Source of the DNA: Xanthobacteraceae bacterium
Lineage (GTDB): Bacteria > Pseudomonadota > Alphaproteobacteria > Rhizobiales > Xanthobacteraceae
Direction: 5' to 3'
DNA: 64,000 nucleotides
Assembly (NCBI GenBank): GCA_023954195.1
Contig: JAMLIK010000001.1
Location: 310,001-374,000 of the forward strand
Position 1 is the stretch's first letter; each line of letters starts with the position of its first letter. Below the pieces are notes generated by a model. The model searched no databases, had not been told where the DNA came from, and worked only from the letters and a program-made list of their open reading frames with translations. Shown one piece after another: positions 29,514-43,594 of this stretch. A program made the translations under genes and the position numbers.

Positions 29514-29908
29514 GCCCCGAATACCACTCAGACGGACCGACGCCATTGCCGCGCCGATCCCGCACCCCATTCCCCACCCGGCGTCCTGTACGAAAGCCAG
29601 GTTAACATACCGCGGACCGATCAAGGCGGAAATGAGATCGCGTGTTGGACATGGTAAACGGCCGGTTGCCGCGTTGACGGTTCGGCGCGGAAGGCCGCCC
29701 TGCTCCGTGCCGAACGCCTCGTGACATCTCGCCCTGGCGGCGGCCGGACGTCGGTCGGGGCTTTCAGCCATCGCCGGGCTCTGCCGGAGCCACTTCCGCT
29801 GCGATAAAATCGGAACGGGCCCTGGTTTCTGGTTTTGACGCGTTTTCTTTACGCGAACCGGATTCCACTTTGCTCGAAAACGCTATAAGGGCTAGCCGTG
29901 TCGTGAAC
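29514..29908. other. 395-bp intergenic region upstream of rlpA and the tRNA gene
   Basis: No gene is supported here. It should contain the rlpA promoter (minus strand) and the tRNA promoter (plus strand); TATAAG at 29884-29889 is a possible -10 element for the tRNA, without a clear -35. Minus-strand frames here are either the unneeded 5' extension of rlpA or the tRNA antisense shadow. Confidence 0.5.
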
Positions 29909-29998
29909 GGAAGGGTGGCCGAGTGGTTTAAGGCACCGGTCTTGAAAACCGGCGTGCCCGCAAGGGTACCGTGGGTTCGAATCCCACCCCTTCCGCCA
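29909..29998 (+). tRNA. tRNA-Ser (UGA)
   Basis: This 90-nt class II tRNA has acceptor arms GGAAGGG (29909-29915) and CCCTTCC (29988-29994), an encoded CCA end, a D-arm GCCGAGTGGTTTAAGGC, an anticodon stem CCGGT/ACCGG with loop CTTGAAA giving anticodon TGA (29943-29945), a long variable arm (GTGCCC-GCAA-GGGTAC) and a T-arm GTGGG-TTCGAAT-CCCAC. It reads UCA codons. Its 3' end is the attachment site of the mobile element and remains intact after integration. Confidence 0.97.
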
Positions 29999-30001
29999 CC
30001 A
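29985..30001 (+). repeat. attL core (tRNA 3' end)
   Basis: The sequence CACCCCTTCCGCCACCA occurs here and again at 45892-45908 with no mismatch; flanking bases differ on both sides. It covers the last 14 bases of the tRNA-Ser gene including CCA, plus three bases beyond. Confidence 0.93.
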
Positions 30002-30052
30002 GATGACAATTTCCTTATAAAATACAATCACTTAGCAAAAATCTACAATATC

Positions 30053-30073
30053 TACCCTAGCGGTTACCCTAGA
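30053..30073 (+). repeat. Left arm-type repeats, candidate integrase sites
   Basis: TACCCTAGC at 30053 and TACCCTAGA at 30065 are in the same orientation with 12-bp spacing, 52 bp inside attL. The same nonamer occurs three times just inside the other end (45707-45738). Short phased direct repeats near both att cores are what arm-binding sites of tyrosine recombinases look like. Confidence 0.6.
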
Positions 30074-30092
30074 GGGCTAAACGGCTAAAACA

Positions 30093-30171
30093 GGCGGAAT
30101 CCGCCCCTTTTCCCGAACCCCAGTTCGGCTTTCCCGCCCTATCGTTCGGCATTTGCCGAACTACGGTTCGG
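30093..30171. repeat. Cluster of GTTCGG/CCGAAC palindromes
   Basis: Four palindromes lie in 79 bp: GGCGGA-A-TCCGCC (30093-30105), CCGAAC-CCCA-GTTCGG (30113-30128), GTTCGGCA-TT-TGCCGAAC (30144-30161) and CCGAAC-TACG-GTTCGG (30156-30171). The last two share an arm. This is the proximal, less regular part of the palindrome array and could bind a dimeric regulator. Confidence 0.6.
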
Positions 30172-30275
30172 TGGCTTTCGGCACCACCCCAACCGCCTGA
30201 TTATGTTGGGTTTCTTGGCGATTTCGGCGGGTTTCGGCACCACCCTGTCGAGGTATTCCCCCAATGGTGGAGAAG

Positions 30276-30690
30276 GACGGTGCAAAATTGCGCCGTCGTC
30301 AGTGACGGACACAACCATGGCTGTGCTCACCCCCCAATCCGCCGGTAGCCGCACCGTCGTGTCATTGTCCGCCCCCCAATGGGGGGGTGACGTCACCCCT
30401 CAATCCGAGGGTAGCCGCACCCAAAACGCTTGTGGAAATAATTCCACAAGCGTCGAATGCACCCATCCCGCATCGAGGGGTCCGCACCGTATCCCCAAAT
30501 CTGGGGATACCCCCTTCGGGTTGGGTCCGTCCTCCATCTGAGGGTGGACGCACCACAAACTTAGTGAGGGCACCCATACTAAGTGGTTGGGTCCGTCCTC
30601 AATCGGAGGGGGGACGCACCGTTTTGATTGCCGGGTATTACCCGGTAATCGTTGCCGCCACCCCGCATCCAGCCGGGTCCGCGCGCACAG
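30276..30690. repeat. Array of a degenerate 30-nt repeat alternating with unrelated palindromes, period about 66 bp
   Basis: The repeat core reads CCTCAATCYGAGGGT and ends in GCACC. The central AAT/CAT lies at 30336, 30402, 30471, 30535, 30601 and 30666, giving steps of 66, 69, 64, 66 and 65 bp; copies at 30326-30355 and 30367-30422 (its last 30 bases) differ at only four positions. Between copies lie different palindromes: 30276-30297, 30310-30325, 30372-30387 (six C, AAT, seven G), 30426-30453 (12-bp perfect arms ACGCTTGTGGAA), 30490-30509 (TATCCCC/GGGGATA), 30559-30584 (ACTTAGT/ACTAAGT) and 30627-30649 (arms of TTGCCGGGTA type). Steps are not multiples of three, so coding is unlikely. It occupies most of the 775-bp gap between the tRNA and the next gene. 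Function unknown. Confidence 0.75.
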
Positions 30691-30773
30691 AGCGGTTTTG
30701 CTCTCTCAGGCTACCTACCTACCTGCCAGCGCATTAATCGCACCAGCGGCGCTCTCTGGCGACTTGCGGGTGC

Positions 30774-31025
30774 TCATGCTGCCACCCTTTCGCTCTCAAA
30801 CGCCTGATGGAAGCCGCGCTCAATCGCCTGCGCGTGGTCAAGCATTGTCAGCGTCAAGCGATGAAATCCGGGCGAAACATCGTTGCCGAAAACGCCAGCC
30901 GCAGCGATGTTTTCGAGCATGGTGACATATTGCCGGATGGCAAAAATGTCGTCCTCCAAGCTCAAGAAGATGTTGGCGGGATCGGGTTTTGCGGGCGTGG
31001 GTGTGGTATTTTGGGAATCAGCCAT
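30774..31025 (-). CDS. Hypothetical protein, element left end
   Basis: This 83-residue acidic protein has a Pro/Thr-rich N-terminus (MADSQNTTPTPAKPDP) followed by a helical region (FLSLEDDIFAIRQYVTMLENIAAAG, then LTMLDHAQAIERGFHQAF). No known domain is recognised. ATG 31025 has GGAGAC upstream and is preferred to the longer open frame starting at 31124. It is transcribed towards the palindrome array, so the array could form its 3' untranslated region, and it diverges from the ribbon-helix-helix gene across an 86-bp region with two inverted repeats. Confidence 0.7.
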   Translation of the reverse strand: MADSQNTTPTPAKPDPANIFLSLEDDIFAIRQYVTMLENIAAAGVFGNDVSPGFHRLTLTMLDHAQAIERGFHQAFESERVAA

Positions 31026-31061
31026 TAGCCGTCTCCAGAGCGGTTGAGGGTTAGGGCCGTT

Positions 31062-31080
31062 GGGAAGGTACGAACTTCCC
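31062..31080. promoter_or_regulatory. Inverted repeat GGGAAG/CTTCCC in divergent promoter region
   Basis: GGGAAG (31062-31067) and CTTCCC (31075-31080) flank seven bases between the divergent genes at 31025 and 31112. It may be an operator or a 5' untranslated hairpin of the minus-strand gene. Confidence 0.4.
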
Positions 31081-31095
31081 TTCGGCCTGCTTTTA

Positions 31096-31136
31096 TGATA
31101 ACGAATAATACATGACGAAGTCAATAAATGTTATCA
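31096..31136. promoter_or_regulatory. TGATAAC/GTTATCA inverted repeat around the start of the ribbon-helix-helix gene
   Basis: TGATAAC at 31096-31102 and GTTATCA at 31130-31136 are perfect inverted copies that straddle the ATG at 31112. A small DNA-binding protein encoded there could use them for autoregulation. Confidence 0.45.
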
Positions 31137-31300
31137 AAAAAAGTCGGGGCCGACCCGCGACAGGTCAAGGCACCCTGATCGGCGTCCGCCTGCTGGATGC
31201 TCCGCTGTCTACGCTGGATGCGTGGATAGCGCGCCAAGACGAGCCGATGACGCGCCCCGAGGCTATCCGTCGCTTAATAGAACGCGGGATGAAGAAGTAA
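31112..31300 (+). CDS. Small ribbon-helix-helix-type DNA-binding protein
   Basis: This 62-residue protein reads SRGRPATGQGTLIGVRL, then DAPLSTLDAWIARQDEPMTRPEAIRRLIERGMKK. A basic N-terminus, one beta strand and two helices ending with SRPEAIRRL-like residues are the pattern of CopG/RHH regulators and antitoxins frequent in Rhizobiales. No toxin gene is adjacent, so a transcriptional regulator of the element's left-end genes is more likely. The start codon lies between the arms of an inverted repeat. Confidence 0.75.
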   Translation: MTKSINVIKKSRGRPATGQGTLIGVRLLDAPLSTLDAWIARQDEPMTRPEAIRRLIERGMKK

Positions 31301-31308
31301 CGCAATCG

Positions 31309-31423
31309 GCGTTACGGATAAAAACACCGCAGTTTCTTGCGCTTTTTTATCCGTAACGCAATCGTGTAGCCGCCGTTACGAATAATGCTACTTTCGAAAG
31401 TAAAGACCTGTTATCCGTAACGC
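31309..31423. promoter_or_regulatory. Paired inverted repeats GTTACGGATAA, candidate operators of the zinc-finger gene
   Basis: GCGTTACGGATAAAAA (31309-31324) is perfectly inverted at 31344-31359. A second pair, GTTACGAATAA (31375-31385) and TTATCCGTAAC (31411-31421), has the same geometry exactly 64 bp downstream and ends two bases before the ATG at 31424. Four half-sites in two equal 47-bp pairs suggest cooperative repressor binding, overlapping the promoter and start site. Confidence 0.6.
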
Positions 31424-31810
31424 ATGAAATGTCGCTACTGCACAACCGAACTTGAAGCCAACGCGCCGATTTACCGCGTCCGCAACTTCAGGCCGATCGA
31501 TTACGGTATCACCTATCGATGCCACGCCTGCGCTGATGATTTTCACCATTACAAGTGGAAGGCTGCGGTGCCGTGCTCGAACTGCGGACGTCCAGTAGTC
31601 CGTAAAAGCACGCAGCATCTGCATCCCGTCTGTTCCGATGCTTGTTACGCCGCCGTCAGAAACGCAGTTGCTCGAAAGAAGCGGGCTGCTGATCGCCAAC
31701 CGGTTGCCTGTAAGACTTGCGGAGAGACATTCAGCCCCAAACGGGCGGATGCTGCATTTTGTTCTGTCGCCTGCAAGCAGCGCGCATACCGCGTTAGACT
31801 GCGAGCATAG
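31424..31810 (+). CDS. Cys-rich zinc-ribbon-like hypothetical protein
   Basis: This 128-residue basic protein has several CxxC pairs: CRYC at the N-terminus, CHAC, CSNC, a CSDAC segment and a C-terminal CKTC...FCSVACKQRAYRVR module. It probably binds two or three zinc ions and nucleic acid. Proteins with the FCSVACKQRAYR ending are common in phages and mobile elements of Alphaproteobacteria; role unknown. It follows the RHH gene on the plus strand, against the direction of the structural genes, and its start abuts the GTTACGGATAA repeats. Confidence 0.75.
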   Translation: MKCRYCTTELEANAPIYRVRNFRPIDYGITYRCHACADDFHHYKWKAAVPCSNCGRPVVRKSTQHLHPVCSDACYAAVRNAVARKKRAADRQPVACKTCGETFSPKRADAAFCSVACKQRAYRVRLRA

Positions 31811-31878
31811 GGGCGATTCCGGTTGCCCTCCCCGGTTCCCGCACGATAAGGTTGCGGGGCATAAGTTAGGGGGAAATG

Positions 31879-32289
31879 ATGGCAGACAAGGACGAAAAAG
31901 AGCCTCAGGCGTTTGATGTTATATCCGCCACGGCCATCGCCTTCCCGCGCGAAGATCAATTGACGATGGTTTTCAACACCAAGGAAGATGGGACGCTAGC
32001 TGCGGTTATCCCGGCTGGGATGGTCGGAAGCCTTTATGCAAAGGTGGCCGCTGAGCATCAGAAACTCGCTTTGAAGAGTGGCGACACACAATCTGCGCTC
32101 GTCCCTGCGGAACTGTCGGGCGTTATGGCTCGCGAAGAGGGGTGGACGGGCAAGCCTGTTCTGCTTTTGCAGATTGATCGCGTGTTTGAATTGGCTTTGC
32201 TCGTGACTCCTCAGATTTTAGAGCACCTAGAGGCCGTAGTGAAATCGCTGAGCGAACCACCAGACCCCGATCGGCCAAAGCCGCACTAG
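31879..32289 (+). CDS. Hypothetical protein on the plus strand of the element
   Basis: This 136-residue acidic protein (MADKDEKEPQAFDVISATAI..., PREDQLTMVFNTKEDGTLAAVIP) has no recognised domain; it looks globular with mixed alpha/beta content. The run AGGGGGAA lies just before the start, which favours ATG 31879 over ATG 31876. Third of three plus-strand genes in the element; the position opposite to the morphogenesis operon is where satellites often carry accessory or host-interaction genes. Its end converges on the joining-protein gene. Confidence 0.65.
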   Translation: MADKDEKEPQAFDVISATAIAFPREDQLTMVFNTKEDGTLAAVIPAGMVGSLYAKVAAEHQKLALKSGDTQSALVPAELSGVMAREEGWTGKPVLLLQIDRVFELALLVTPQILEHLEAVVKSLSEPPDPDRPKPH

Positions 32290-32336
32290 CTTCATCTGAT
32301 AGCGGTCTCATATCCAAATCCTTCGATCCTGCGACT

Positions 32337-32681
32337 TCACGGTCCTATCGCCGCGATATCGAGACAACCTTGCCATTCCCTCCGATCACGGTCGACGGCC
32401 TCGACGCTCAGTTCTTTCCCTTGGACGGTGATCTTGTCGGACTTCACGACATGCACCGGGAATCCGACATCGGCTAAGGCTTGCTCGCTCACGATGATCT
32501 TGCGGGAGCCCAGCGTGATGCCGTTGATAAGTTCCTCCGGCTTGTAGCCTGAGACAACAGCCTTAACGTCTTTCGATACAGTCGTCTGGTTCGGATAGGC
32601 ACCGGTCACACGTTTGAACGTGACTGTGTGGCCACGGCGCTCGATTGCTGCCCTTGCGCGGGCTGCTGATGCATTGTCCAT
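32337..32681 (-). CDS. Putative head-tail joining / head completion protein
   Basis: This 114-residue protein reads IERRGHTVTFKRVTGAYPNQTTVSKDVKAVVSGY... GSRKIIVSEQALADVGFPVHVVKSDKITVQGKELSVEAVDRD. The pattern, an N-terminal helix, a TVTFKR strand, a D-V-K-A-V strand and a final beta sandwich describing a measured value (DKITVQGKELSVEAV), resembles small phage head-tail joining or neck proteins. Last minus-strand gene after the terminase. Without tail genes it would close the capsid or dock a helper phage's tail. Assignment by pattern only. Confidence 0.55.
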   Translation of the reverse strand: MDNASAARARAAIERRGHTVTFKRVTGAYPNQTTVSKDVKAVVSGYKPEELINGITLGSRKIIVSEQALADVGFPVHVVKSDKITVQGKELSVEAVDRDRREWQGCLDIAAIGP

Positions 32682-32914
32682 TAGACCTCTCCAACACGTT
32701 CAATGATGATCGGGAGTCCACCTTCGACCGTCCTACGCTCGGAGCGGTCGTACTCCTTGCCCCAAGTCTCTCGGGACTGCGCCATTGCCTCAGCGCGTGA
32801 CGGGATGCGCCATTCGATGATTGCACCATCGGCGATGGAGATAGAGCGGACGACGCAATTCTGGCTCTTCGGCTTGCGGAATCCCGACGCTGTTCGGCTA
32901 ACCAACAGATGCAT
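32681..32914 (-). CDS. Hypothetical protein downstream of terminase
   Basis: This 77-residue protein (SISIADGAIIEWRIPSRAEAMAQSRETWGKEYDRSERRTVEGG) has no recognised domain. It sits in the minus-strand run between TerL and the joining-protein candidate; the last base of its stop is shared with the first base of the next gene, and its start overlaps the preceding gene by 17 bases, which supports expression as part of the operon. A later start is possible. Confidence 0.55.
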   Translation of the reverse strand: MHLLVSRTASGFRKPKSQNCVVRSISIADGAIIEWRIPSRAEAMAQSRETWGKEYDRSERRTVEGGLPIIIERVGEV

Positions 32915-33221
32915 CGTACCAATTCACGATGTTCGCGATGTTTTGCGAACTCCAAACCGTTGGCGGTGCCCAACTGGATAGATCGTGCAGCACGGCATTG
33001 AACACTTCGGCATGTGCATCGTGCCAAGCCTTGATCAGATCCTCATCCATGCCGGCGGCTTTCATCTTGTCGATGCGAGACACCATCCTTGCCGACTGCC
33101 CGTTGTGAGCACGATCGGCGCCATACTTCGAAATAGCCTCAAAGACTTCGGCGGCATCCTTGCGGCCTAGTTCGGCTCCGGCATCGCACCACTTCCTGAA
33201 TCGTGCCATCGTCATTTTCAT
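32898..33221 (-). CDS. Hypothetical protein immediately after TerL
   Basis: This 107-residue protein is mostly helical (MKMTMARFRKWCDAGAELGRKDAAEVFEAISKYG...) and ends with a Trp-rich stretch (WAPPTVWSSQNIANIVNWYDASVG). ATG 33221 is chosen because GAGG lies six bases upstream; the frame also allows a GTG at 33233 overlapping the TerL stop. No known domain. The position suggests a virion or packaging accessory protein. Confidence 0.6.
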   Translation of the reverse strand: MKMTMARFRKWCDAGAELGRKDAAEVFEAISKYGADRAHNGQSARMVSRIDKMKAAGMDEDLIKAWHDAHAEVFNAVLHDLSSWAPPTVWSSQNIANIVNWYDASVG

Positions 33222-33232
33222 TTGAGACCTCA

Positions 33233-34846
33233 CTAAATTACCAAGATGCCTTCGGGACGATCATCAGTGCTGTAAACACTGATGCCGGTATCGCCAGCTA
33301 CGGCACGGGAGACGGCCATCCATGACGCCACGGCCCCGTCTATTCGAGAAACTGACTTGTCCTTTCGGAAAGCCCGATTGCTGTTGCCCCAGTGATGCAC
33401 CGCGATATTGGAGAAGCACCAACGCAACACGGGATTCCCGGCATGGACGAAATGGCCCTGAATAATCACTCGCTCCAATGTATCGAGAGCTGGCGTTTGG
33501 ATTTGCCATTGCTGGGAGATTTCAATGACGGGAAGCCCGTCATCCATCAGCGGACCCATGACCGCCTGAGCGCGCGCACGATCGAAACCGATTTCACGGA
33601 CGTCGAACCTGTCGCATAGAGCGCGGATATGCGCCTCTATCATACGCGGATCGATCACGTTCCCCGGCGTCCCCGTCAAATACCCTTGTTCCGCCCATGT
33701 AAGGTACGGCGCGCCATCCTGCTCGCCCTTGGCTCGTAGATTCTCTGCGGGACAGAAAAAATGCGGAAGGATGATGTAATCATCGCCGTAAGGGATGCAG
33801 GCCACAACCGCGGTTAAGTCAGTCGTGACGCTGATATCTGCCCCAATCCAGCAAGGAAGCCCGTCGATATCGTCAGGAATCGGACGGTTGCCCTTGTCGT
33901 AAACAGCCATATCGACAAACGGACTGGTTGAATGGTCCAGCCAGACGTTGAATTTGTATTGGAGCAGGCTTTCCCTCTCTATCGGACTATCCTTGGCCCG
34001 CGCGACATGACGACGGAAACCATCGATAGATGGATAGCCATGATCTACACCGGGATTGACGCGCCTCCATGCCGACTCGCTGGCGATATTGACATCGGCG
34101 GGGGATTCGAACAGCACAGGAAGCAATGACGGATCATCGATTTCGCCACGCGCCACCTTCCGCGCGCGTTCGATAACCTCAAAGGCGATATTCTCCTGTC
34201 CCCTTCCCGCTGTCGTGGCAATCGCCAACAGGCTATTATCGACCTTATCCAAGCCGTTGGTGACGACTTTATAGAGGTCGCTCCCCCGGAATACATGGAT
34301 TTCATCAAGCAGCGCGAACGCTAAGGTTCGACCTTCAGCCGCTGGCGCATCCGACGAGATGATTTCCAGTTCTGTCGCATCGGCTGGATAAGTGATCTTC
34401 TTAGCAGAGTTGTGAGCATCATAGATTTTGACGTGCGAACTGACTCTATCGTCCGCCTGTACGATGCTCCGCGCCTCTCGGAAGGCAATGGCAGCCTGCT
34501 TGCGATTGGAGGCAGCAAAGACGGCCTCACCGCCCGAAACACGCTCAGGCCCGATCGTATGAAGCAACGCCAACGCCGCTGCCAGTGACGATTTTCGATT
34601 GCCGCGAGGCACCAGGATCACGACGCTGCTGACGATGCGCGTTCCATCCTCTTTGCATGGTCCATAGATGCGCCGGACGATGCGTTCCTGCCACGGATCG
34701 AGTTGGAATGCCTTCTTCGGCAGACGGCTTTTGGGATGCTTTAGAGCACGAAGAAACCGAACAGCCCGTTCACCGTAGCCGAATGGGTCCGGGATTTCGC
34801 TGCCGTCATAAATCCAGTCAGGAAATGTTGAGCGGGTTTTCGTCAT
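33233..34846 (-). CDS. terL: Terminase large subunit
   Basis: This 537-residue packaging motor and nuclease has an N-terminal ATPase with adenine-motif region FQLDPWQERIVRRIYG, a Walker A variant VPRGNRKSSLAAALAL (Arg replaces the canonical Gly, as in some phage terminases), Walker B FALLDEIHVF and coupling motif AIATTAGRG. The C-terminal RNase H-like nuclease domain has Asp-bearing motifs WIGADISVTTDLTAVV and RIDGAVASWMA. It looks full length and intact. It overlaps terS by 29 bases. It belongs to the HK97/P27-type terminase class. Confidence 0.92.
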   Translation of the reverse strand: MTKTRSTFPDWIYDGSEIPDPFGYGERAVRFLRALKHPKSRLPKKAFQLDPWQERIVRRIYGPCKEDGTRIVSSVVILVPRGNRKSSLAAALALLHTIGPERVSGGEAVFAASNRKQAAIAFREARSIVQADDRVSSHVKIYDAHNSAKKITYPADATELEIISSDAPAAEGRTLAFALLDEIHVFRGSDLYKVVTNGLDKVDNSLLAIATTAGRGQENIAFEVIERARKVARGEIDDPSLLPVLFESPADVNIASESAWRRVNPGVDHGYPSIDGFRRHVARAKDSPIERESLLQYKFNVWLDHSTSPFVDMAVYDKGNRPIPDDIDGLPCWIGADISVTTDLTAVVACIPYGDDYIILPHFFCPAENLRAKGEQDGAPYLTWAEQGYLTGTPGNVIDPRMIEAHIRALCDRFDVREIGFDRARAQAVMGPLMDDGLPVIEISQQWQIQTPALDTLERVIIQGHFVHAGNPVLRWCFSNIAVHHWGNSNRAFRKDKSVSRIDGAVASWMAVSRAVAGDTGISVYSTDDRPEGILVI

Positions 34847-35207
34847 CGTCTTCCATGGCTTTCTGCTGTCGCACTCCGGTTCGGGATCGCGCCATCGGCG
34901 TCAGGCCAATCTCAGCGGCGTAACGGCGGCTGATCTCTAGGTACTGCTGTTCCATCCGAACGGCGGGGTGCGCCTTGCTACCCAGCATGACCTTGCCGCG
35001 CCGCGCCTTGGCTGCCTCTCTCGCACCGGCAATGGCATTGCAGTAGTTCTCAACCATCGGCGGATCGGTGAACAATCCACGCGATGCAAGGTCCGGAACG
35101 ACTCGTTTCCATTCAGATTTTGCCGCTGCCGACATGCCGGACGGCGGTGACGGTGCTTTCGTCACGGTATCGTTCACGACAACCAGTTTTGGTTTGACGC
35201 CGCGCAT
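34818..35207 (-). CDS. terS: Terminase small subunit (P27 family)
   Basis: This 129-residue DNA-recognition subunit of the terminase shows the P27-type pattern SGMSAAAKSEWKRVVPDLASRGLFTDPPMVENYCNAIAGAREA, ending in an acidic tail (EDDDENP) that would contact TerL. Having its own TerS means the element can recognise its own DNA for packaging; the packaging site would be expected nearby but is not identified. Confidence 0.85.
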   Translation of the reverse strand: MRGVKPKLVVVNDTVTKAPSPPSGMSAAAKSEWKRVVPDLASRGLFTDPPMVENYCNAIAGAREAAKARRGKVMLGSKAHPAVRMEQQYLEISRRYAAEIGLTPMARSRTGVRQQKAMEDDDENPLNIS

Positions 35208-35295
35208 CAGATAGCCCTTTCCCGACCTTCGGAGCCGCTAATTTTCGCTTCAATTTCTTCAATTAAAACAACTGTTTATTGGAACCACATTTCGG

Positions 35296-35709
35296 TTATC
35301 TCTTGCGCTGCTGACCCCGTGCGGTTCGGGTTCCCTTGCCAGATGTTTTTGCCTCCCGGGGGAGTGCCCGACGTTCCTGCGCTTGCTTCCGGCTGTTGTG
35401 GCAATGGGTGCAGAGCGACTGCCAGTTCGATCGATCCCAGAACAATCGCTGATCACCACGATGCGGGACGACGTGATCGACGGTGTCAGCGGGTTGTCCG
35501 CATGGCTTGCCGTCGATGACCATGGCGCAAGTCGGGTGACTCAGTAGCCATGACGCTCGCGCCTTGCCCCATCGGGTATCGTAGCCGCGTTGGCGTGCTG
35601 GTATCCGACGCTGATCTATCTCCGCTCTGCGTTGCTTCGCATGTTCACAAAGAACGCCTGTAGGCGTGATGCAGCCGCATGAGCGCAATGTCGGTGCTCT
35701 ATAGGGCAT
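35296..35709 (-). CDS. HNH endonuclease
   Basis: This 137-residue nuclease carries the HNH core DTVDHVVPHRGDQRLFWDRSNWQSLCTHCHNSRKQ, with CxxC-type zinc ligands in SCGC...C and CTHC, and a basic C-terminal tail. HNH proteins of this type lie next to terminase genes of HK97-like phages, are needed for DNA packaging/maturation in those systems, and are a hallmark of capsid-forming satellites. The start overlaps the connector gene by 11 bases; an 88-bp AT-rich gap separates it from terS. Confidence 0.9.
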   Translation of the reverse strand: MPYRAPTLRSCGCITPTGVLCEHAKQRRAEIDQRRIPARQRGYDTRWGKARASWLLSHPTCAMVIDGKPCGQPADTVDHVVPHRGDQRLFWDRSNWQSLCTHCHNSRKQAQERRALPREAKTSGKGTRTARGQQRKR

Positions 35710-36301
35710 CGGAATGGGCGGCCTTGTAATGGGGCTCTATGAGCGTTTGGACGGGTGCGGGTAAGCCTGCTGCTGTTAGCGCGAAGAACTCTTGGCGCTC
35801 GATGTCAGTCACGTCGATGGCGCGGATCATGGGATCGCGGGATGCTTGGGATCGATACTGCTGCACCAGCATGATGACGGCTTGCACCAAGTCAGGTGGA
35901 ACATCCTCGATATCGTATCCCGCGACATATCGAACCGTGATCGCGCCATAGGGCCAGCACGCAAGCCTATCGGATATCAGCCGTTCGATGATGCCGGACG
36001 TGGTATCAATCGCATAATCAGTTTCAGCGAGCGTTGTTTCGCCTTCCATGATCGAGACAACGGAAGTGACCGGATACCGCGTCATCAATAGGCCGCGACG
36101 GCCGCCGCTGCTGCGAAATGTCTGTTCTACTGTCTCGGCTAACAGGACGCGGTTGCATGCTGTAGCAATGGCGCTGCTGGCCTGTGTGATGAGTGCTGCT
36201 AACGTGGCATCTTCGCTGCTGTCCGAGATACCTAGCGCCGCCTTGACCACGGCAAGGGTTGCTAGATCTGGACTGTCGGCTGGGGTGATGATGCTGAGCA
36301 T
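35699..36301 (-). CDS. Head-tail connector (gp6-like adaptor)
   Basis: This 200-residue protein begins with the adaptor helical motif LATLAVVKAALGISDSSEDATLAALITQASSAI and continues with a beta-rich central part and a helix VPPDLVQAVIMLVQQY, the standard layout of HK97 gp6-like connectors that ring the portal. GAGG lies six bases before the ATG. It lets the capsid seal or accept a tail, which would have to be supplied in trans. Confidence 0.85.
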   Translation of the reverse strand: MLSIITPADSPDLATLAVVKAALGISDSSEDATLAALITQASSAIATACNRVLLAETVEQTFRSSGGRRGLLMTRYPVTSVVSIMEGETTLAETDYAIDTTSGIIERLISDRLACWPYGAITVRYVAGYDIEDVPPDLVQAVIMLVQQYRSQASRDPMIRAIDVTDIERQEFFALTAAGLPAPVQTLIEPHYKAAHSDAL

Positions 36302-36321
36302 GGTGGCCTCGTGGAAGGGGT

Positions 36322-36401
36322 GCGGCTGCCCGGAAGCGAGGGCACGGGGATGACGCGGGACGACCGGGCAGCCGCCACCGCCCCGGTGGTGAAACCGGGG
36401 C
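36322..36401 (-). promoter_or_regulatory. Two GC-rich hairpins between capsid and connector genes
   Basis: GCGGCTGCCCGG (36322-36333) is perfectly inverted at 36364-36375, and GCCCCGGT (36380-36387) at 36394-36401 with a 6-nt loop. Both lie in the 121-bp gap after the capsid stop. No T-run follows, so they are not classic terminators; they may protect the capsid mRNA or reduce read-through so that capsid protein exceeds connector. Confidence 0.55.
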
Positions 36402-36422
36402 GATGAAGGTTATGGGTGCGGG

Positions 36423-37595
36423 TTAGGCTTTGGTGGACTTCACCAGAACAACCGCCTCCGTCAGCGTCGGGGCACCGCCAACACGACGGCGTGCACGAAT
36501 TTTGACGATGCCGTTATCCGCGCCGGTCAGGTCGTCCAACTTGATCTGAATGCCGACACGGTCAACGATCTGATACGCCGACCGGTAGTCGCCGAATGCG
36601 ATCGGATACTTGGTCCCGGTCGCAGTCGGCAGGCTATCCATAGATACGGCATCCAGCACGGGGCGTCCGAGAAGCGTGGCCGGGGTGCCGTTGGCAAGGC
36701 TGTCCGACCACAGCGTCTTATTCGCGGTATCGGCAGCGGCACGGATGACACCCTGAGTCTGACGATTCATTAGCCAAGCACCCTGGGAAGCATAAGCATT
36801 CGGCAAGGCGTAGAAGGCATTGATGACGGCGGTCAGGATGTCGGAGCCGTTGGCGTTGGCCGTGACGAAGGCATAATCGCCCGGAGTCTTGAGCAAGCCG
36901 GTCGGCTTGCCGGAACCGTCACCGGTCATGAACGCATCAGCTTCCAGCGCCGCGAACGTGGTCGCGATCTGGCCCGACACGTAGCTTTGCAGGTCGATGA
37001 AACTGTCCTCCAACAACTGGTTGCTGATCGGCACAACCACCGCCTGCTCGAACGCCTCGATGCTCATCTGATCGAACGCCGGTTCGGACGACGGACGGGA
37101 GCCCGTTTCAGTCACCCAGCCACCGGAAAGCCGCGTATTCAGGATTGGCAGGTAAACCTTGCTCGAACCAATTGACATCACGCTGGCGACGGATCGGAGC
37201 GGCGAATACTGCAACAGCTTCTCGATGATGACCTTGCTGTATTCCGGTGCGGTGACATAGCCGCCCGCTGAGCCAGTGCCCAGATTAAGCGTCTTTTTCT
37301 CCACGTCATCCAAAGCGCCGGCACCGCCACGGAAGAAGCTATTGAGCGCCTTGGCTTCAAGCGCAATGGCTTCATCCTTGGTTTCGACAGCCGAACCCGG
37401 ACGGCCCTGCTTGGCTTCGATCTTGTCGAGGCGCTCGACCAGAGGCTTCAGCGCATCAGTCGCCTTGGTTTCGACAGCCTTCACCGTCGAGTCCAGAGCA
37501 GTCATCTTGGTGTCAAACGCGGTGGTCAGCGATGCAATCGCGGCCTCCACATTCGGAGTCTCGTCCTTGAACTCAAAGGGTCGAAGATGTTTCAT
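36423..37595 (-). CDS. HK97-fold major capsid protein
   Basis: This 390-residue protein has an N-terminal coiled-coil scaffolding (delta) domain (residues about 10-75, many Lys/Glu/Thr heptads, KATDALKPLVERLDKIEAKQG), then the mature capsid domain beginning about residue 100: GGYVTAPEYSKVIIEKLLQYSPLRSVASV, the E-loop region VYLPILNTRLSGGWVTETG, and ADAFMTGDGSGKPTGLLK typical of the family. A strong ribosome binding site (AGAGGAA) precedes it. Capsid size cannot be inferred from sequence. Confidence 0.93.
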   Translation of the reverse strand: MKHLRPFEFKDETPNVEAAIASLTTAFDTKMTALDSTVKAVETKATDALKPLVERLDKIEAKQGRPGSAVETKDEAIALEAKALNSFFRGGAGALDDVEKKTLNLGTGSAGGYVTAPEYSKVIIEKLLQYSPLRSVASVMSIGSSKVYLPILNTRLSGGWVTETGSRPSSEPAFDQMSIEAFEQAVVVPISNQLLEDSFIDLQSYVSGQIATTFAALEADAFMTGDGSGKPTGLLKTPGDYAFVTANANGSDILTAVINAFYALPNAYASQGAWLMNRQTQGVIRAAADTANKTLWSDSLANGTPATLLGRPVLDAVSMDSLPTATGTKYPIAFGDYRSAYQIVDRVGIQIKLDDLTGADNGIVKIRARRRVGGAPTLTEAVVLVKSTKA

Positions 37596-37607
37596 GGTGT
37601 ATTCCTC

Positions 37608-38132
37608 TTAAGCGCGCAACGCGGCGGTTGCATTTCTAATTGCAGCGACAAGCCGCGCGGCATCGGCATTCTTCACCGCCGTTACTGCGGCGGATTCGTT
37701 CATCGGAAAGGTCACGATACTCACCTCGCGGAGATCGACTTCGAGCAGCTTGCGGACGTTCTTGACCCTGTCGTATTCGTCCCTGAGCGTTCGATAGCCG
37801 ATGGATAGTCCGTCCATGGCACCAGCTTTCATCAGTGCATGGACTTCTTTCGCTCTTGCGCTGGCAAGGATCAGCTTGCCCTTGGCGACTAAGCCCTTTG
37901 AGGTTTCGGCCAATGAGGTCCAAATACCGATCGGCTCATCCTGGCGATGCTGAAACAGCATCTTCACCTTTCCGGCCGGGCGCGCCTTGAGCGAATTGGC
38001 GAAAGCACCCTTGATCAGAACGTCACGACCCTGATCGATGTTGCCGAATGCAGCCGCCAACCCTTCAAACTCGCCTTCCTCGTTCACAGATTTCAGGTCA
38101 AGTTCCATCGCGGCATGGATAATGTTGCTCAT
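37608..38132 (-). CDS. HK97-family prohead protease
   Basis: This 174-residue serine protease of the U35/S78 family matures the capsid by removing the delta domain. Visible signatures are EGLAAAFGNIDQGRDVLIKGAF, the catalytic His in MLFQHRQDEPIG and the catalytic Ser in AGAMDGLSIGYRT. It has AAGGAG before the start and overlaps the portal gene by four bases. Present with portal and capsid, it completes a functional head-assembly set. Confidence 0.92.
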   Translation of the reverse strand: MSNIIHAAMELDLKSVNEEGEFEGLAAAFGNIDQGRDVLIKGAFANSLKARPAGKVKMLFQHRQDEPIGIWTSLAETSKGLVAKGKLILASARAKEVHALMKAGAMDGLSIGYRTLRDEYDRVKNVRKLLEVDLREVSIVTFPMNESAAVTAVKNADAARLVAAIRNATAALRA

Positions 38133-39331
38133 GATGGCTCCTTCGGCGGTTGACGACGCTGGATCGGCGGTGGAATTTGAGCCGTCACGTTCGGATTGAG
38201 GAATTCATCGCCGCCGTCGTATGGCGCGAGATTTTCAAAGCTGCGGACTTCGTTCGGACACAAGATCCGCGATGCAATCGCCTGAGCGTATGCGCTATAT
38301 CGTTGTGCGATATCGGCCTTTACCAACGCGTCCGTTGAGAACTCTGCGAAGTAGACCTTCCGATCATCGTCACTAAGCAACCGGCCAATGGCGTCTTGCC
38401 ATTCGGTGCATCGGCCCAAAATCGTATGAGTCAGATAAGCTTGGCTCGCATCCGCAGAATTGGCGTAAGTCTGCCGCGTGAAATCGAAAAGCAGATTCGG
38501 CGGAATCCCCAAGCATCTGCCAATTTCGATCGTCTGGAACGCCCGCATGGCGCTAAATTCCAAATCGACTGACGACCAGCTAATCGGAGAGAACGAGACG
38601 CCATCTTCGAGAACTGCTGTTCCGCCCGAATTGCTGCCACTGTGAGCACCGCGCCATGACGTCGTCAGGCGTTTCAGCGCGACGTCGTCTAGCTTCTTAG
38701 GCGAAGTCAGAACACCGCCGGGACGTGCCGCATTGCTCATCAACCGGCTGGCATGGCCCTGTAACGCGAGACTCAGTCCGATGGCATCGGCGCATTCCTT
38801 GATCGGTGACAGCCCGTTGAGCGACCGAACATGAAGAATCCGACGCCAGTGGAAGGTATCGATTCCACCCGATTTCCGCGTGACCTTGTAAATCGGCTCA
38901 AGATCGTCGCCAATTTCGACGTTGACCGAACCCGGTTCAAGGCGATGAAGTTCCCTGACCTCGCCACCGGCTTCGACCGCCAAGGCATAACCGTTGCCGG
39001 TCGTGATACAGTCGAATTCAAGCTGCTTCACCAACGTCGCCGATGAGGTCATCGGGTTCGCCCAGCCGTGAATCAGCGCATAGAGCGGATGACCGGTAGC
39101 CGCCTCCTTGCGCTCACCGGAGCGGCGGAACAGCTTTAGACTGAGATTGGAGAGCGTTTCAGTCCGAATACGGACACCGGCATTAACGGCCGGACATCGC
39201 ATCGCGGTAACGGGATCAACACGAACACCGGACGCGGTGCGCGCACCAAGATCAACCAGCGCATCCCAAGACGCCTGATCGAAAGATTTGGTTTCCGGCT
39301 TACCGCCGAATAGTTTGTCGAAAATACCCAT
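38129..39331 (-). CDS. Phage portal protein (HK97 type)
   Basis: This 400-residue portal subunit has the family N-terminus MGIFDKLFGGKPETK, VNAGVRIRTETLSNLSLKLFRR, the LYALIHGWANPMTSS segment, HVRSLNGLSPIKECADAIG, and the distal FQTIEIGRCLGIPPNLLFDFTRQTYANSADAS motif. The C-terminus is Pro-rich. First structural gene of the minus-strand morphogenesis operon; three tandem 10-bp repeats lie about 60 bp upstream. Confidence 0.93.
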   Translation of the reverse strand: MGIFDKLFGGKPETKSFDQASWDALVDLGARTASGVRVDPVTAMRCPAVNAGVRIRTETLSNLSLKLFRRSGERKEAATGHPLYALIHGWANPMTSSATLVKQLEFDCITTGNGYALAVEAGGEVRELHRLEPGSVNVEIGDDLEPIYKVTRKSGGIDTFHWRRILHVRSLNGLSPIKECADAIGLSLALQGHASRLMSNAARPGGVLTSPKKLDDVALKRLTTSWRGAHSGSNSGGTAVLEDGVSFSPISWSSVDLEFSAMRAFQTIEIGRCLGIPPNLLFDFTRQTYANSADASQAYLTHTILGRCTEWQDAIGRLLSDDDRKVYFAEFSTDALVKADIAQRYSAYAQAIASRILCPNEVRSFENLAPYDGGDEFLNPNVTAQIPPPIQRRQPPKEPS

Positions 39332-39390
39332 CGCTCCGCCGATTCATCCCGCTACGGGAATGATGTACGGAAGCGAGTCACGATCGCCAT

Positions 39391-39420
39391 TGGGAACGAT
39401 TGGGAAAGATCGGGAACGAT
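39391..39420 (-). repeat. Three tandem 10-bp repeats upstream of the capsid operon
   Basis: The plus strand reads TGGGAACGAT, TGGGAAAGAT, CGGGAACGAT in direct tandem, one helical turn each, between the small HTH gene and the portal start. Phased repeats of this kind suit an activator or repressor binding to one face of the DNA in front of the morphogenesis genes. Confidence 0.6.
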
Positions 39421-39623
39421 CACGCTGCGGCTGGATTCTGACCCATCAACCAAGCGATCAGCGCAGACTTGCGAGTGACGAGGCGTCCATTAATCTTGCG
39501 GATCGGTGTACCCGGGAGCTTCGCCCAAGCGTAAATTGTATCCTGACAGCAAGGGACGAACTCGGCAATCTGCTTTGCGCCCCACAATCGATCATTGATC
39601 CAATTGTCATTGATATCAACCAT
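39420..39623 (-). CDS. Small helix-turn-helix protein (excisionase/AlpA-like)
   Basis: This 67-residue protein reads DRLWGAKQIAEFVPCCQDTIYAWAKLPGTPIRKINGRLVTRKSALIAWLMG. This is a winged-helix MerR/excisionase-type domain: a helix-turn-helix (AKQIAEFVPCCQDTIYAW) followed by a wing (PIRKINGRLVTRKSAL). It could be the excision factor or a regulator of the adjacent morphogenesis operon. The ATG at 39623 is chosen over a longer basic extension. The stop coincides with the edge of the 10-bp repeat cluster. Confidence 0.75.
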   Translation of the reverse strand: MVDINDNWINDRLWGAKQIAEFVPCCQDTIYAWAKLPGTPIRKINGRLVTRKSALIAWLMGQNPAAA

Positions 39624-39924
39624 TCTTGCCCCGTTTGATTTTCTTGCTGCGCTTCGGCTTCCGTGACCGCCGTTCCTGTTCCGCCGCTTCCGCCTTGGCG
39701 CGTTCTTCCTCTTTAATGACCTCGATGGCGTCTCGCTGGGTGCATTCAAGCCATAGCGACTTCGGTTGTAGCGCGTCACGTAACCGCGTCAGAGCCTTGA
39801 CGCCATAAGTGAATGTCTCGATACGCTCGTCCACGATTCTGACCATCGTGGCGACGTTGTCATCAATCGCGATGACCTTGGCGAGTTTATTGGCTCCAAC
39901 CACCATGTCGCCGACCATCACCAT
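39616..39924 (-). CDS. Hypothetical protein with basic C-terminal tail
   Basis: This 102-residue protein has an SH3-like beta-rich N-terminal half (GDMVVGANKLAKVIAIDDNVATMVRIVDERIETFTYG) and a strongly charged C-terminus (EEERAKAEAAEQERRSRKPKRSKKIKRG), suggesting nucleic-acid contact. No known family. It overlaps the genes on both sides by 7-8 bases, so it is translationally coupled to the sigma-like and HTH genes. Confidence 0.65.
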   Translation of the reverse strand: MVMVGDMVVGANKLAKVIAIDDNVATMVRIVDERIETFTYGVKALTRLRDALQPKSLWLECTQRDAIEVIKEEERAKAEAAEQERRSRKPKRSKKIKRGKNG

Positions 39925-41072
39925 TCAATCATGTCCACCGTAACGGTATCGCCTACAGTCGTGCGGCCATCATCGAACACGTTCTGATCCAGGCTTTTGT
40001 CGCGGCTTAGGTGGTTGCGACCTGTCCGCCTGACATAATTTCCGGCAAGTTTCGCCGCAAGTTTCTTCATCGCGCCGATGTCACTGATAATAACATCATC
40101 GCCGCGTTCAATCAAAGTAATCACGACATCGGAGACAACATCTTCGCGATCGTCGGAATCTAGCCATCCCGGAACAGCCCTGCGCGCCAAACGATACAAC
40201 TCGTTCTGGTTTAGCCGCGTCTCACGTCGTCCGGCCTCGACTAGCTTTCGCTCGGCATTGGAAACGGAACGCTCCATCCCGAGGCGGATATTTCGTTTGG
40301 TTAGAACCTGGTCCAACCGCTGGCGCAGCTTCGGATTGTCCAAGGCGCGGCGACGAAACGTCGATAGCGCGGGAGCTTCTACAACGATTGCATCATACAA
40401 ACGATCTACCGCTCCGATATCCGCAACCCGCGATGCGAACTCTATCAGATCGGTATCCGTCCATTCGCACGCCTTCCCGCGTTTCGTGGCGGGATTGGCC
40501 TCACGGCGCAATGTAGCCTCTTGGTACTGGCGACGACGTTCGGGATCTTCGTTGATGATTGCGCGGAACGGCTCATACGACGGGAACTTGGGATCGGACT
40601 CTAGCGCCTCGCGATACAACATGCCGCCTTCGATGAGCTTCAGAATCTCATCCCAATATCTAAGAATGGCGGCTCGACCGGGACGATTCATTCCGGTGGC
40701 ACGGCGAGCCGCCATCACCTCGGCTTGAATCTCGGGGTAATAGCCGCAAGCGTTCTTCACGACGGCGGCTGACGGCTTCTCCGGTAATGCAGCCGCTATC
40801 GCCTTCCACGTCGCGCCTTCACCACGGAGTCGCTTAATCAAATCCAGATGGCGTTTGACGATGGCGGGTCCGTTACGGACACCGCTGGCGGCCTTGGCTT
40901 CCCTCAACCGTTCACGATGCTCAGGACTGTGAGCGCAGAACGACGCAAACTTAAGGTCTGTCGGAAAGCGCGGGTCCGATGCACATGCCGCGCGCATCGT
41001 CATGCCGGTCGCCATCAACGCGACGATGCCGTCGAAATGGATTCGAGAAGGAGACGGTGGACGTTTCGCCAT
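39918..41072 (-). CDS. Protein with TerS-like HTH repeats and a sigma-70-like C-terminus
   Basis: In this 384-residue protein the N-terminal half has repeated units resembling phage small-terminase DNA-binding helices (MRAACASDPRFPTDLKFASFCAHSPEHRERLREA, later YREALESDPKFPSYEPFRAIINEDPERRRQYQ). The C-terminal about 100 residues (LYRLARRAVPGWLDSDDREDVVSDVVITLIE... ending SLDQNVFDDGRTTVGDTVTVDMIEW) look like sigma-70 region 2 followed by the D-x-x-x-x-x-D-G-x-T-T-x-G-D box seen in ECF/phage sigma factors. No region 4 is evident. It could recruit RNA polymerase to the element's late promoter. Assignment is by pattern. Confidence 0.55.
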   Translation of the reverse strand: MAKRPPSPSRIHFDGIVALMATGMTMRAACASDPRFPTDLKFASFCAHSPEHRERLREAKAASGVRNGPAIVKRHLDLIKRLRGEGATWKAIAAALPEKPSAAVVKNACGYYPEIQAEVMAARRATGMNRPGRAAILRYWDEILKLIEGGMLYREALESDPKFPSYEPFRAIINEDPERRRQYQEATLRREANPATKRGKACEWTDTDLIEFASRVADIGAVDRLYDAIVVEAPALSTFRRRALDNPKLRQRLDQVLTKRNIRLGMERSVSNAERKLVEAGRRETRLNQNELYRLARRAVPGWLDSDDREDVVSDVVITLIERGDDVIISDIGAMKKLAAKLAGNYVRRTGRNHLSRDKSLDQNVFDDGRTTVGDTVTVDMIEW

Positions 41073-41328
41073 GATGACGCAGAGATGGAATCGCCGGCGC
41101 GATGGCGCAAGAGTCCGGGCAACCCGCTACCGAATTCGGGCGCGCGATTTTTTTCCGGGCGAGCCAAATTGCTCAACAAGAGATGAAGAGCACCAGAATA
41201 TAGGGAGAAGGACACAGATCACGACCACCGGGGGGCAGACCACTACCACAACCCACCCCCCCCACCTTCTTCCATTTGTGACGACAAATCCCGATAAGAT
41301 ATTGATACATATGGAGAACGTCGGTGGC
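41073..41328. promoter_or_regulatory. Intergenic region with operator-like palindrome before the sigma-like gene
   Basis: This 256-bp gap between two minus-strand genes is likely to hold the promoter of the sigma-like/HTH/capsid gene run. A perfect palindrome ATTTGT-GACG-ACAAAT lies at 41274-41289, and a strand-biased C-rich tract (runs of C on the plus strand) at 41230-41266. No gene is seen. Confidence 0.5.
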
Positions 41329-42570
41329 TCAAGCTACCTTGATTTTGGCTGCTAAACTGGCGATCTCATAAGCGGCTTGGACCATGATTTCCTCAAGTTC
41401 ATCTCGCTTAGAAGATGGCACAAGAAAGCTGTCGTGGACCGGTAGCACGACGATGCCGCGCTTCAACATCAACAGTTGAACCGTCTCGGCTATCGCGCTG
41501 TCGATCGACATAAGACGCGCGCCAGCATCGCTATGAAAAAAGCGGGCAATCGGTCTATGCGCTCTTTTAATCGCGCCTATAACCGTGCTGGCCGTTCTGA
41601 ATGCCTCTTGCGAGCCGACGTCGTGTCCCACGTAGGTTATCGCCGGGTTGAACGCCGTTGCTGCACGAGCGGAAGGCAGATCCTGTGCGTTTATCAAGAT
41701 CAGTAGCGCCACCTTCACCAGATCGCGAGGCCATGGCAGAATCTCATATGGGTCAGAAGGCATGGGTGCGCCGATCTCAGCGTAAAGCAGCGCCGGGTGT
41801 AGCGCGCTGTAATCTAGCTCAACGACAGACTCACCGTTGATGGTAATTGCCTTCCGCGCTTCTTTCCTCATCGATTGCCACGCGCCTCCCATTGCGTAGA
41901 AGCGACCACCACGGCGGAAGTCTACGTTGAATATGCGGACCAGCGGTGCCGCAGCGTTGTCGGATATGTCGATGCTGGCGATGGCTTCGTTGATCCGCGC
42001 CAGCCGCCGCCGCATTCTATCGATTGCTTGGCTGTCTGAATAATCGATGTTCTCGTGATCGCTATTCCGCATGATGATCGTTTCACGCGGTGCAGCGATA
42101 ACAAGGCGGGGCTCGTTCTGAATGATCGCCCGGATTGGCTCGATCAAGGTGGGGCGCGCAATCGCCGCAGACTGCCAGCCGCGCGCACCAGGTGCAGCCT
42201 TCGCGTGGTCAATGAAGCCGCCAGCATCAAGCCTGTCGAATGCACCCGTCACAGCCCTATAGGTCATAAGCGGATGACGATAACGAACCGGCGTCGAATA
42301 GTGCTGCCAACGCCGCGAGTATGAGACGGGTCCATCGGTAGTCACCAGCGCAATCGCGATCGCCGCCATCGGCTTGTCGAAACCAAGCTCAAGGCGCAGC
42401 GGGTCGTAGAATCGTCGCAGATCCCAGCGGAAGCACAGAGCTTTTTGTGATTCACGAACTTGCGCGTGAAAGGCGTTTGTCGTATCCGTTTCAAACTCAT
42501 CGCCGCAACGCTGAGAATCTGAAACAGACCCGTCTTCCACGCCGGAGGGCGGGTTCTGTTTTTTTGTCAT
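41329..42570 (-). CDS. Putative replication protein with single-subunit-polymerase-like motifs
   Basis: This 413-residue protein of unrecognised family has a C-terminal half with three spaced motifs resembling polymerase motifs: VVELDYSALHPALLYAEIG (like motif A of family A/B polymerases), LPWPRDLVKVALLILINAQ (basic helix like motif B) and IVVLPVHDSFLVPSS (like motif C; the HDSF core matches T7-type RNA polymerase and is close to the HDE of family A DNA polymerases). The N-terminal half is probably template- or DNA-binding. It starts 4 bp after the TOPRIM-like gene and sits in the replication position of the element, so a dedicated replicative polymerase or primase is the working idea. Confidence 0.5.
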   Translation of the reverse strand: MTKKQNPPSGVEDGSVSDSQRCGDEFETDTTNAFHAQVRESQKALCFRWDLRRFYDPLRLELGFDKPMAAIAIALVTTDGPVSYSRRWQHYSTPVRYRHPLMTYRAVTGAFDRLDAGGFIDHAKAAPGARGWQSAAIARPTLIEPIRAIIQNEPRLVIAAPRETIIMRNSDHENIDYSDSQAIDRMRRRLARINEAIASIDISDNAAAPLVRIFNVDFRRGGRFYAMGGAWQSMRKEARKAITINGESVVELDYSALHPALLYAEIGAPMPSDPYEILPWPRDLVKVALLILINAQDLPSARAATAFNPAITYVGHDVGSQEAFRTASTVIGAIKRAHRPIARFFHSDAGARLMSIDSAIAETVQLLMLKRGIVVLPVHDSFLVPSSKRDELEEIMVQAAYEIASLAAKIKVA

Positions 42571-42574
42571 GCTG

Positions 42575-43594
42575 CTATGCTGCGCCTCCCGCCATCTCGT
42601 CGGCGAGGATCCTGACGACTTCCATCCGGACTTCTTCCTGAGCGAAGTCGAGCTTCAGGCGATATTCTCGAATAGCATCGACATTGACGTACTTCATGAT
42701 CGCGTTGCGGCAGAGTGCCCGACCGGCATCCGGCGCAATGACGAGCGCGTTAGCTTCGACCTTCCGGATACCGAATTGCTGGATGTACCGCTGCACGTAG
42801 GGCTTACTGTGGTCGTCGTGCTTTGGATTAGCGAGGTCTTCACCGGACCCCGTAATTAGATTCTCGACCCAGGTTAGATTGTGGGCTTCGATGAAATCGG
42901 GGTTCAAGCCGAACCTGTCGATGACAAGGTTGTCCGGCGACCATCCAACCGCGTGCGATAGGTCGTTCATGTTCGAACGCATGAATTCGCTGATGTTTAA
43001 TCCGGCCGGATCGTGGTCGCCGCAATACAACAGGACTGGCACCAGTCCTTTCATCTCCGCGTCTTTGAACCTCTCCATCATCGCGGCGCGGCTGTTGATG
43101 TCCGACCATCCCTTGGCGTTAGCAATCGGGATGTTGAACTCGCGACAGATCGGTTCGAACAAGCTGCGGAGGTCGATCTTTTCGACCATCATTTGAACGT
43201 AGAACGTTTGGTTATCCCACAACGAGATGTGGTGATAATTGAGATGCGCTTCCTTGATCTGCTCGACGATTAGCCACGCTTCGTAGGACGTGCTGTGACG
43301 GTCGATCCATTCGACACCGCTGAAAGCACGGCTGTCATCGACGGCGCAGATATCGATCGGCAGTTCGCCCGACTTCCGGCGATCGTTGATGAACCTCTGG
43401 CAAGCGTCGAATTCAGCTTTGGTGATTAGCCCCCGATTCTCGAAGATGTAGCCCCAGCCGCGAGCCGAAACCTTAAAATCCAATGTTGAAGAGATTTGAA
43501 GGATCGTGTCGCAGAACTCGCGCTTCTCTGCTTCAAACTTGGCGATGGCAGCAGCACTTTGCTTGCCGCGTTTACGGCGCGGGAGGATGCTCAT
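42575..43594 (-). CDS. TOPRIM-domain protein resembling Spo11/TopoVI-A
   Basis: This 339-residue protein reads KVSARGWGYIFENRGLITKAEFDACQRFINDRRKSGELPIDICAVDDSR (winged-helix-like), then LLYCGDHDPAGLNISEFMRSNM, which has the acidic D-x-D-x-x-G of a TOPRIM metal site, and a region WEDL-like near GSGEDLANPKHDDHSKPYVQRYI. This layout resembles topoisomerase VI A/Spo11-like proteins found in phages. A catalytic Tyr is not assigned with confidence. Possible role: DNA nicking or replication start. Its start overlaps the previous gene by four bases. Confidence 0.6.
   Translation of the reverse strand: MSILPRRKRGKQSAAAIAKFEAEKREFCDTILQISSTLDFKVSARGWGYIFENRGLITKAEFDACQRFINDRRKSGELPIDICAVDDSRAFSGVEWIDRHSTSYEAWLIVEQIKEAHLNYHHISLWDNQTFYVQMMVEKIDLRSLFEPICREFNIPIANAKGWSDINSRAAMMERFKDAEMKGLVPVLLYCGDHDPAGLNISEFMRSNMNDLSHAVGWSPDNLVIDRFGLNPDFIEAHNLTWVENLITGSGEDLANPKHDDHSKPYVQRYIQQFGIRKVEANALVIAPDAGRALCRNAIMKYVNVDAIREYRLKLDFAQEEVRMEVVRILADEMAGGAA

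Follow-up and report, generated by a model that had tools for sequence, protein, structure and literature searches.

Within the 64,000-nt window, the whole stretch of DNA that we analysed, the region 30093 to 30690 alternates copies of a degenerate repeat with palindromes that bear no sequence relation to one another. What is this array, and how might a constant repeat come to surround palindromes that all differ? The array is real and unusual, and we take it most likely to be near-neutral cargo DNA.

The repeat unit is 36 nt long and occurs six times on the plus strand between 30320 and 30686. Four copies were found by an automated repeat search and alignment, these being R1 (30320 to 30355), R2 (30386 to 30421), R4 (30519 to 30554) and R5 (30585 to 30620), with 61%, 72%, 100% and 92% identity to the reference copy respectively. 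The divergent copies R3 (30453 to 30488) and R6 (30651 to 30686) we placed ourselves in the alignment. Pairwise identity among the six lies between 0.58 and 0.92. GCACC ends stand in register at 30351, 30417, 30484, 30550 and 30616, giving steps of 66, 67, 66 and 66 bp. Four further GCACC ends are out of register, and copy 6 has no exact GCACC. A preliminary description of this DNA had put the spacings at 66, 69, 64, 66 and 65 bp; the period of about 66 bp holds, and the steps are more regular than that. The periodicity is also evident by autocorrelation. From 30240 to 30690 the highest value for lags of 50 to 85 is 0.410, at lag 66, compared with a shuffled maximum of 0.311 ± 0.012, and for the full range 30093 to 30690 it is 0.372 compared with 0.304 ± 0.010. 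None of 500 shuffles reached the observed value in either range. The left quarter of the array (30093 to 30243) lacks the CCTCAATC core, and holds palindromes at 30113 to 30128, 30144 to 30161 and 30188 to 30210 together with a 23-nt pair (30167/30223) spaced 56 bp apart.

The segments between the repeats are self-complementary. The palindrome between R2 and R3 (30426 to 30453) has perfect arms of 12 bp, and that between R3 and R4 (30489 to 30510) has perfect arms of 9 bp. There are also a palindrome with 7-bp arms between R4 and R5 (30559 to 30584), and a near-perfect one between R5 and R6 (30626 to 30650) with a single mismatch that is G·T on the plus strand. All four had been quoted in the preliminary description and all are present. 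When each segment was subjected to 10,000 mononucleotide shuffles, the observed stem was matched 0 times for R2-R3, 4 times each for R3-R4 and R5-R6, and 55 times for R4-R5. The same test gave 71 for 30129 to 30180, 405 for 30186 to 30236, 430 for R1-R2 and a non-significant 1462 for 30244 to 30319, the segment that includes a GACGG...CCGTC hairpin at 30276 to 30297. The five variable segments are no closer to each other than shuffled sequence (identity 0.37 to 0.61, shuffled 0.545 ± 0.06), and so the palindromes are indeed unrelated, as had been claimed. The core repeat does not itself stand out as a hairpin in any of its six copies, the best being reached by 206 of 3000 shuffles.

Over 30085 to 30700 the summed stem score is 43, compared with 4.7 ± 5.7 for dinucleotide shuffles, none of which reached it in 500 trials. 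Elsewhere in the window, the two 616-bp stretches that begin at 617 and 53593 score 38 and 37, so by palindrome sum alone the array is only a little ahead of them. Folding energy sets it further apart. The z score of 30240 to 30690 is -7.5, the lowest among 107 sampled 450-nt segments of the window, for which the mean is -0.73 and the standard deviation 1.59; the next lowest is -4.9. The two strands fold about equally, with z scores of -7.46 and -7.16 (0 of 100 shuffles in each case). The second-lowest segment of the sample is that beginning at 31201. Four TTATCCGTAACGC sites lie at 31309 to 31423, two on each strand and one with 2 mismatches, and adjoin a 62-aa ORF (31112 to 31300) that has no Pfam match; these resemble operator sites for a small regulator.

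A step of 66 bp corresponds to 22 codons, and the array might thus be a repeated coding sequence or its pseudogene. A 116-aa ORF is open at 30387 to 30737, and among the variable columns in an alignment of four repeats there is a slight excess in one phase (7, 5 and 4 of 16). We give this reading almost no credence. Codon log-odds for 30093 to 30690 fall below zero in every one of the six frames (-0.10 to -0.21), as they do in each frame of three sub-ranges (best -0.016). Of 15 ORFs of the surrounding element, by contrast, 14 are positive in their own frame, the exception being the HNH gene at -0.066. One step of the array is 67 bp, and two arrays at related loci described below (L032 and L035) differ by indels of 88 bp and 2 bp, none of these lengths being a multiple of three. 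A protein-coding region had been named beforehand as an outcome that would overturn the idea of an array; the codon statistics disfavour it, and the region is probably non-coding.

The array lies inside a mobile element, as had been suggested. A tRNA-Ser gene (tga) at 29909 to 29998 on the plus strand, identified by ARAGORN and matched by the Rfam tRNA model (29909 to 29995), provides the integration target. An exact repeat search revealed a 17-bp attL core at 29985 to 30001 that is identical to an attR core at 45892 to 45908, so that the element spans about 29985 to 45908, a size of 15.9 kb. The array is at its tRNA-Ser end, between att and the first gene, and this is presumably the accessory end of the element. 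The motif TACCCTAG occurs five times in the window, where 0.11 would be expected. Two of the sites (30053 to 30072) are beside attL and the other three are at 45707 to 45737, so they flank both ends of the element and are possible integrase arm sites. A head and packaging module occupies 33233 to 39331 on the minus strand. Matches to PHROGs and Pfam identify TerL (33233 to 34846), TerS (34818 to 35207), HNH (35296 to 35709), connector (35699 to 36301), capsid (36423 to 37595), protease (37608 to 38132) and portal (38129 to 39331) genes; the element also encodes a head-closure protein. Profile searches place an AlpA-type regulator (44040 to 44351) and a tyrosine integrase (44480 to 45691) on the minus strand near attR. 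No tail family was matched among 20 ORFs scanned against PHROGs, 5 of which have no match of any kind, with further small ORFs lying outside the scan. PADLOC returned no match for 7 element proteins. The 413-aa protein encoded at 41329 to 42570 belongs to PHROG 4756 (unknown function). It carries DYSALHP and PVHDSF motifs, which we take to recall those of family-A polymerases. Searches of Pfam and NCBIfam gave no match for it, and PDB none of significance.

Judged from its genes, the element resembles a capsid-forming PICI satellite because it has an integrase and an AlpA-type regulator between att sites and its own capsid, portal, protease, terminase and connector genes. Capsid-forming PICIs average 14 kb and make their own capsids, according to passages of PMC10803314, and are alike in size (about 14 to 16 kb) and in gene content. 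The relatives of our element are alphaproteobacterial, whereas the groups named in those passages, mainly Enterobacteriaceae and Lactobacilli along with others, do not include alphaproteobacteria, nor do the passages mention a hairpin array.

A position close to att would suit a DNA site that acts in cis and is read by its shape, such as a replication origin, an accessory packaging or recombination site, or a set of decoy operators. Excision would generate a circle in which, judging from attL and attR, the array would lie near attP and the integrase, and palindromes acting as double-stranded DNA would show no strand preference, as is found. We consider such a role unlikely. A cos site is expected near the terminase-HNH module, and here TerL, TerS and HNH are about 2.5 to 5 kb from the array. 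The palindromes share no common sequence, which tells against the bank of operators that had been proposed. L046 and the element in L029, both relatives that lie at tRNA-Ser, show no array, and the L035 array ends about 2 kb from a tRNA-Ser-like sequence rather than beside it. The origin or packaging site that had also been proposed is not supported, given both the distance from the terminase genes and the general absence of the array from related loci, to which we now turn.

No orthologue of the window array was found in a DNA search of genomes or in phage and plasmid collections. In 61 genomes, including its own, the array DNA matched three others, and on inspection these matches read as coding sequence with no array. 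By blastn neither the window array nor the array of L032 had a match in the phage and plasmid collections, and among 16 genomes of its genus the L032 array was found in its own genome only. Viral contigs were scanned for the pattern three times. One scan gave no match, another gave four that read as coding, and a further scan gave three, comprising L051 itself and two stretches of repetitive coding DNA. A pattern for the Rhodopseudomonas palindromes matched 3 of 296 genomes, including that of R. pseudopalustris itself, and its reversed control matched none. The protein encoded next to the array (30774 to 31124) has no relative in viral contigs, and in the 296 family genomes occurs in its own and four others. 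Three of these four loci were inspected (L026, L027 and L029, the fourth being L028), and no such array was seen beside the gene. L027 has a palindrome score of 50 and shares a contig with L035, whose array is further in. In the window's own genome a homologue of the same ORF, 78% identical over residues 11 to 116, is present in a second element at tRNA-Asn (L030/L010, C1:389 kb), and the stretch read beside it contains no array.

TerL provided a broader set of relatives. There are 42 loci with TerL homologues, of which species genomes contribute 7 and viral contigs 35. In 27 of them at least 3 kb of sequence is available beyond TerL, and up to 5.5 kb of it was examined. Three pairs (L031/L040, L033/L053 and L061/L062) are identical over their first 2500 bases, so at most 24 of the 27 are independent. 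Arrays were called by our own judgement from the listed palindromes, together with the folding z. Arrays of the same style are present beyond the terminase gene in three of the 27 loci: L032 from Rhodopseudomonas pseudopalustris (z = -10.4), L035 from R. rhenobacensis (z = -6.1) and L051, a metagenome contig (z = -6.1). Two of these, L032 and L035, represent one lineage. None of the three aligns to the window array beyond pieces of 20 nt or less. Absence from related elements had been put forward as a result that would count against the array, and it is largely what is seen, in 24 of the 27 loci; the arrays alike in style are the remainder. In four of the loci that have no array the lowest folding z is -4.6. 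The array is thus dispensable in the family.

Some strongly folding segments at these loci are of another kind. In L036, a Rhodobacter element, a z of -6.55 is due to a single 40-bp palindrome with 18-bp arms at 14104 to 14143. A 40-bp palindrome, again with 18-bp arms, lies outside the L035 array near the tRNA end (14375 to 14414; segment z -6.94), and the tRNA-Ser-like sequence near it, examined by eye in L027, breaks off after the anticodon region. In host chromosomal DNA of L083, a pair of GTCCCCGC...GCGGGGAC palindromes with a spacing of about 90 bp (9652 to 9763) is presumably REP-like. The segment from 9601 (z = -7.1) contains this palindrome pair only, and was rejected as an array.

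L032 and L035 carry orthologous arrays, which differ by the presence or absence of whole blocks. An 88-bp hairpin-bearing block containing TTTCGGTGCAGACTGCACCGAAA is present in L035 and absent from L032, and so is a second block containing GGTTTCGCCACAAGTTGTGGCAAAACC, of 32 or 36 bp depending on the alignment. Within L032 a duplicated piece (72% over 75 columns) has shifted stems. Turnover of units, which had been anticipated, is therefore seen between two Rhodopseudomonas satellites; for the window array, which has no orthologues, we infer it from these other arrays. In one stem L032 and L035 show a compensatory difference, A-T against T-A, and the centre of this stem differs as well. Taking the seven left hairpins called in L032 and comparing their pairs with L035, 55 are unchanged, 1 is compensated, 1 has become G·T and 4 are broken. 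For the four right hairpins, where the alignment is poor, the corresponding numbers are 17, 2, 5 and 19. Changed sites number 6 of 98 in the stems of five hairpins, 5 of 58 in the rest of the array, 26 of 246 upstream and 147 of 1608 in TerL, so that the stems show no marked slow-down relative to their surroundings. L051 contains four tandem 18-bp palindromes (9210 to 9281) in which 20 of 20 cells are paired, and two of the five pair positions have changed on both sides in a compensatory manner. Sliding the partners as a control leaves 35 to 60% paired. The shuffle control is modest, with 9 of 500 shuffles reaching the covariation score, 9 of 500 the number of paired cells, and 28 to 49 of 500 the counts of changes.

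Compensatory changes in L051 and in one L032/L035 stem are what would be expected of a structured multi-hairpin RNA in which pairing is selected and sequence is free, for example one that acts as a sponge or decoy, with an RNA-binding protein or a nuclease of the host as its target. The strong folding fits such an RNA too, and in the window array the stem mismatches read on the plus strand comprise 4 G·T, 1 A·C and 5 others. Two minus-strand promoter-like sites (31095 to 31134; 0.8 expected) face the array past the ORF at 30774 to 31124. A consensus scan found no promoter-like site on the plus strand of 29880 to 31450, and at the Rfam gathering threshold only tRNA was matched in the 64 kb. With the five arrays taken together there is no overall strand preference of mismatches (8 G·T, 9 A·C and 18 others), both strands fold about equally, and the absence of an array from most related loci weighs against an RNA as well. 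We regard the multi-hairpin RNA raised as a candidate in the preliminary description as a less likely reading. CsrA-type sponges, and separately attC/integron sites, were dropped on inspection.

We consider that a process acting at the level of DNA suits the observations somewhat better than RNA under selection, because the best palindromes are perfect yet unrelated, the strands fold about equally, the mismatches have no overall strand bias and the stems do not evolve clearly more slowly. In this account, to which we give about an even chance, the array is a non-coding tandem series of hairpin-forming DNA units, near-neutral cargo that has grown by duplication and whose stems have been rewritten by template switching. 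Slippage or duplication where hairpins form would add units as the DNA is replicated. Template switching of the polymerase across a hairpin would copy one arm onto the other within a unit, so stems would stay perfect or be replaced while their sequence was rewritten fast, and the flanking 36-nt repeat would drift slowly. A single template switch across a hairpin is reported to create perfect stems and double substitutions (PMC8794818, PMC8604942). Duplication together with template switching would leave the repeats constant and the palindromes between them unrelated, and would require neither capture nor exchange of units. Selection for pairing would give the same kind of pattern, and the L032/L035 pairs, which are broken as well as compensated, count against template switching since pairing is not well kept. 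If the process is mutational, the array preserves in compact form a natural history of how hairpins template the rewriting of DNA in a mobile element of bacteria, and compensatory changes alone would be no proof of a functional RNA.

That several satellites of the family carry arrays, unlike in sequence, may be a sign of a common function, and any function would act by shape, not sequence. It is conceivable, if doubtful, that satellites of alphaproteobacterial phages carry a module defined by shape only, in which sequence changes freely and fast, pairing is selected, and the structure is read as folded RNA or as extruded DNA. Such a module would be a decoy or cis-signal for a satellite, helper or host factor that could not be found by sequence search, and selection would then have produced a class of elements invisible to such searches.

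How does the array compare with repeat systems already described? Known dispersed palindromic repeats, whether REP/BIME or MITE, could have accumulated here. Palindromes in tandem beside a constant sequence are reminiscent of BIMEs, and REPs and REPINs likewise form composite, regularly spaced arrays of extragenic palindromes (PMC2817692 and PMC3733652). GGTAG is present in R1 and R2, and a GTAG tag is a feature of REPs in the latter source. REPs are palindromes present in many copies, whereas the palindromes here differ from one another. The CCTCMATCNGAGGG core, allowing one mismatch, occurs at six places in the genome, three within the array and three singly (R1, R3 and R6 being too divergent for this pattern), and blastn of the array region revealed no second array in the genome. 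Recurrence is limited to one stretch of 68 bp and a single type of hairpin. The stretch, 30176 to 30243, is 79% identical by blastn to another in the same genome; this counterpart, accompanied by a GGACGG hairpin, lies at C1:458.7-459.0 kb, by genes for a HigB-like toxin and AlpA near tRNA-Pro. Hairpins like that at 30276 to 30297 occur at two other places (L009 and L010), the L010 element being at tRNA-Asn. We therefore regard a REP/BIME origin as very unlikely, since the constant core forms no other array.

The alternation of repeat and variable unit at a fixed period is shared with CRISPR. The array is not CRISPR, however, because its repeats are too divergent, being 58 to 92% alike rather than near-identical, and its variable units are self-complementary; the preliminary description was right to set the two apart. 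REP/BIME and CRISPR thus each fail in a defining feature.

Literature searches covering open-licence PMC papers turned up no account of such an arrangement in satellites of bacteria. The nearest described kinds that we found are hairpin repeats of organelles. Passages of PMC2800124 describe repetitive hairpin elements of sponge mitochondria that are scattered among groups and tandem in places, with two types that differ by complementary substitutions, and passages of PMC2670323 describe short palindromic repeats in the organelles of Volvox. Like our array these are perfect intergenic hairpins, in places tandem, scattered among relatives and with no known function. They differ in having many dispersed copies, with conserved stems in the sponge types, whereas the window's genome shows no such dispersal of one element. 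The window array is instead a single array in a bacterial phage satellite, in which every stem is different and a constant repeat lies between them.
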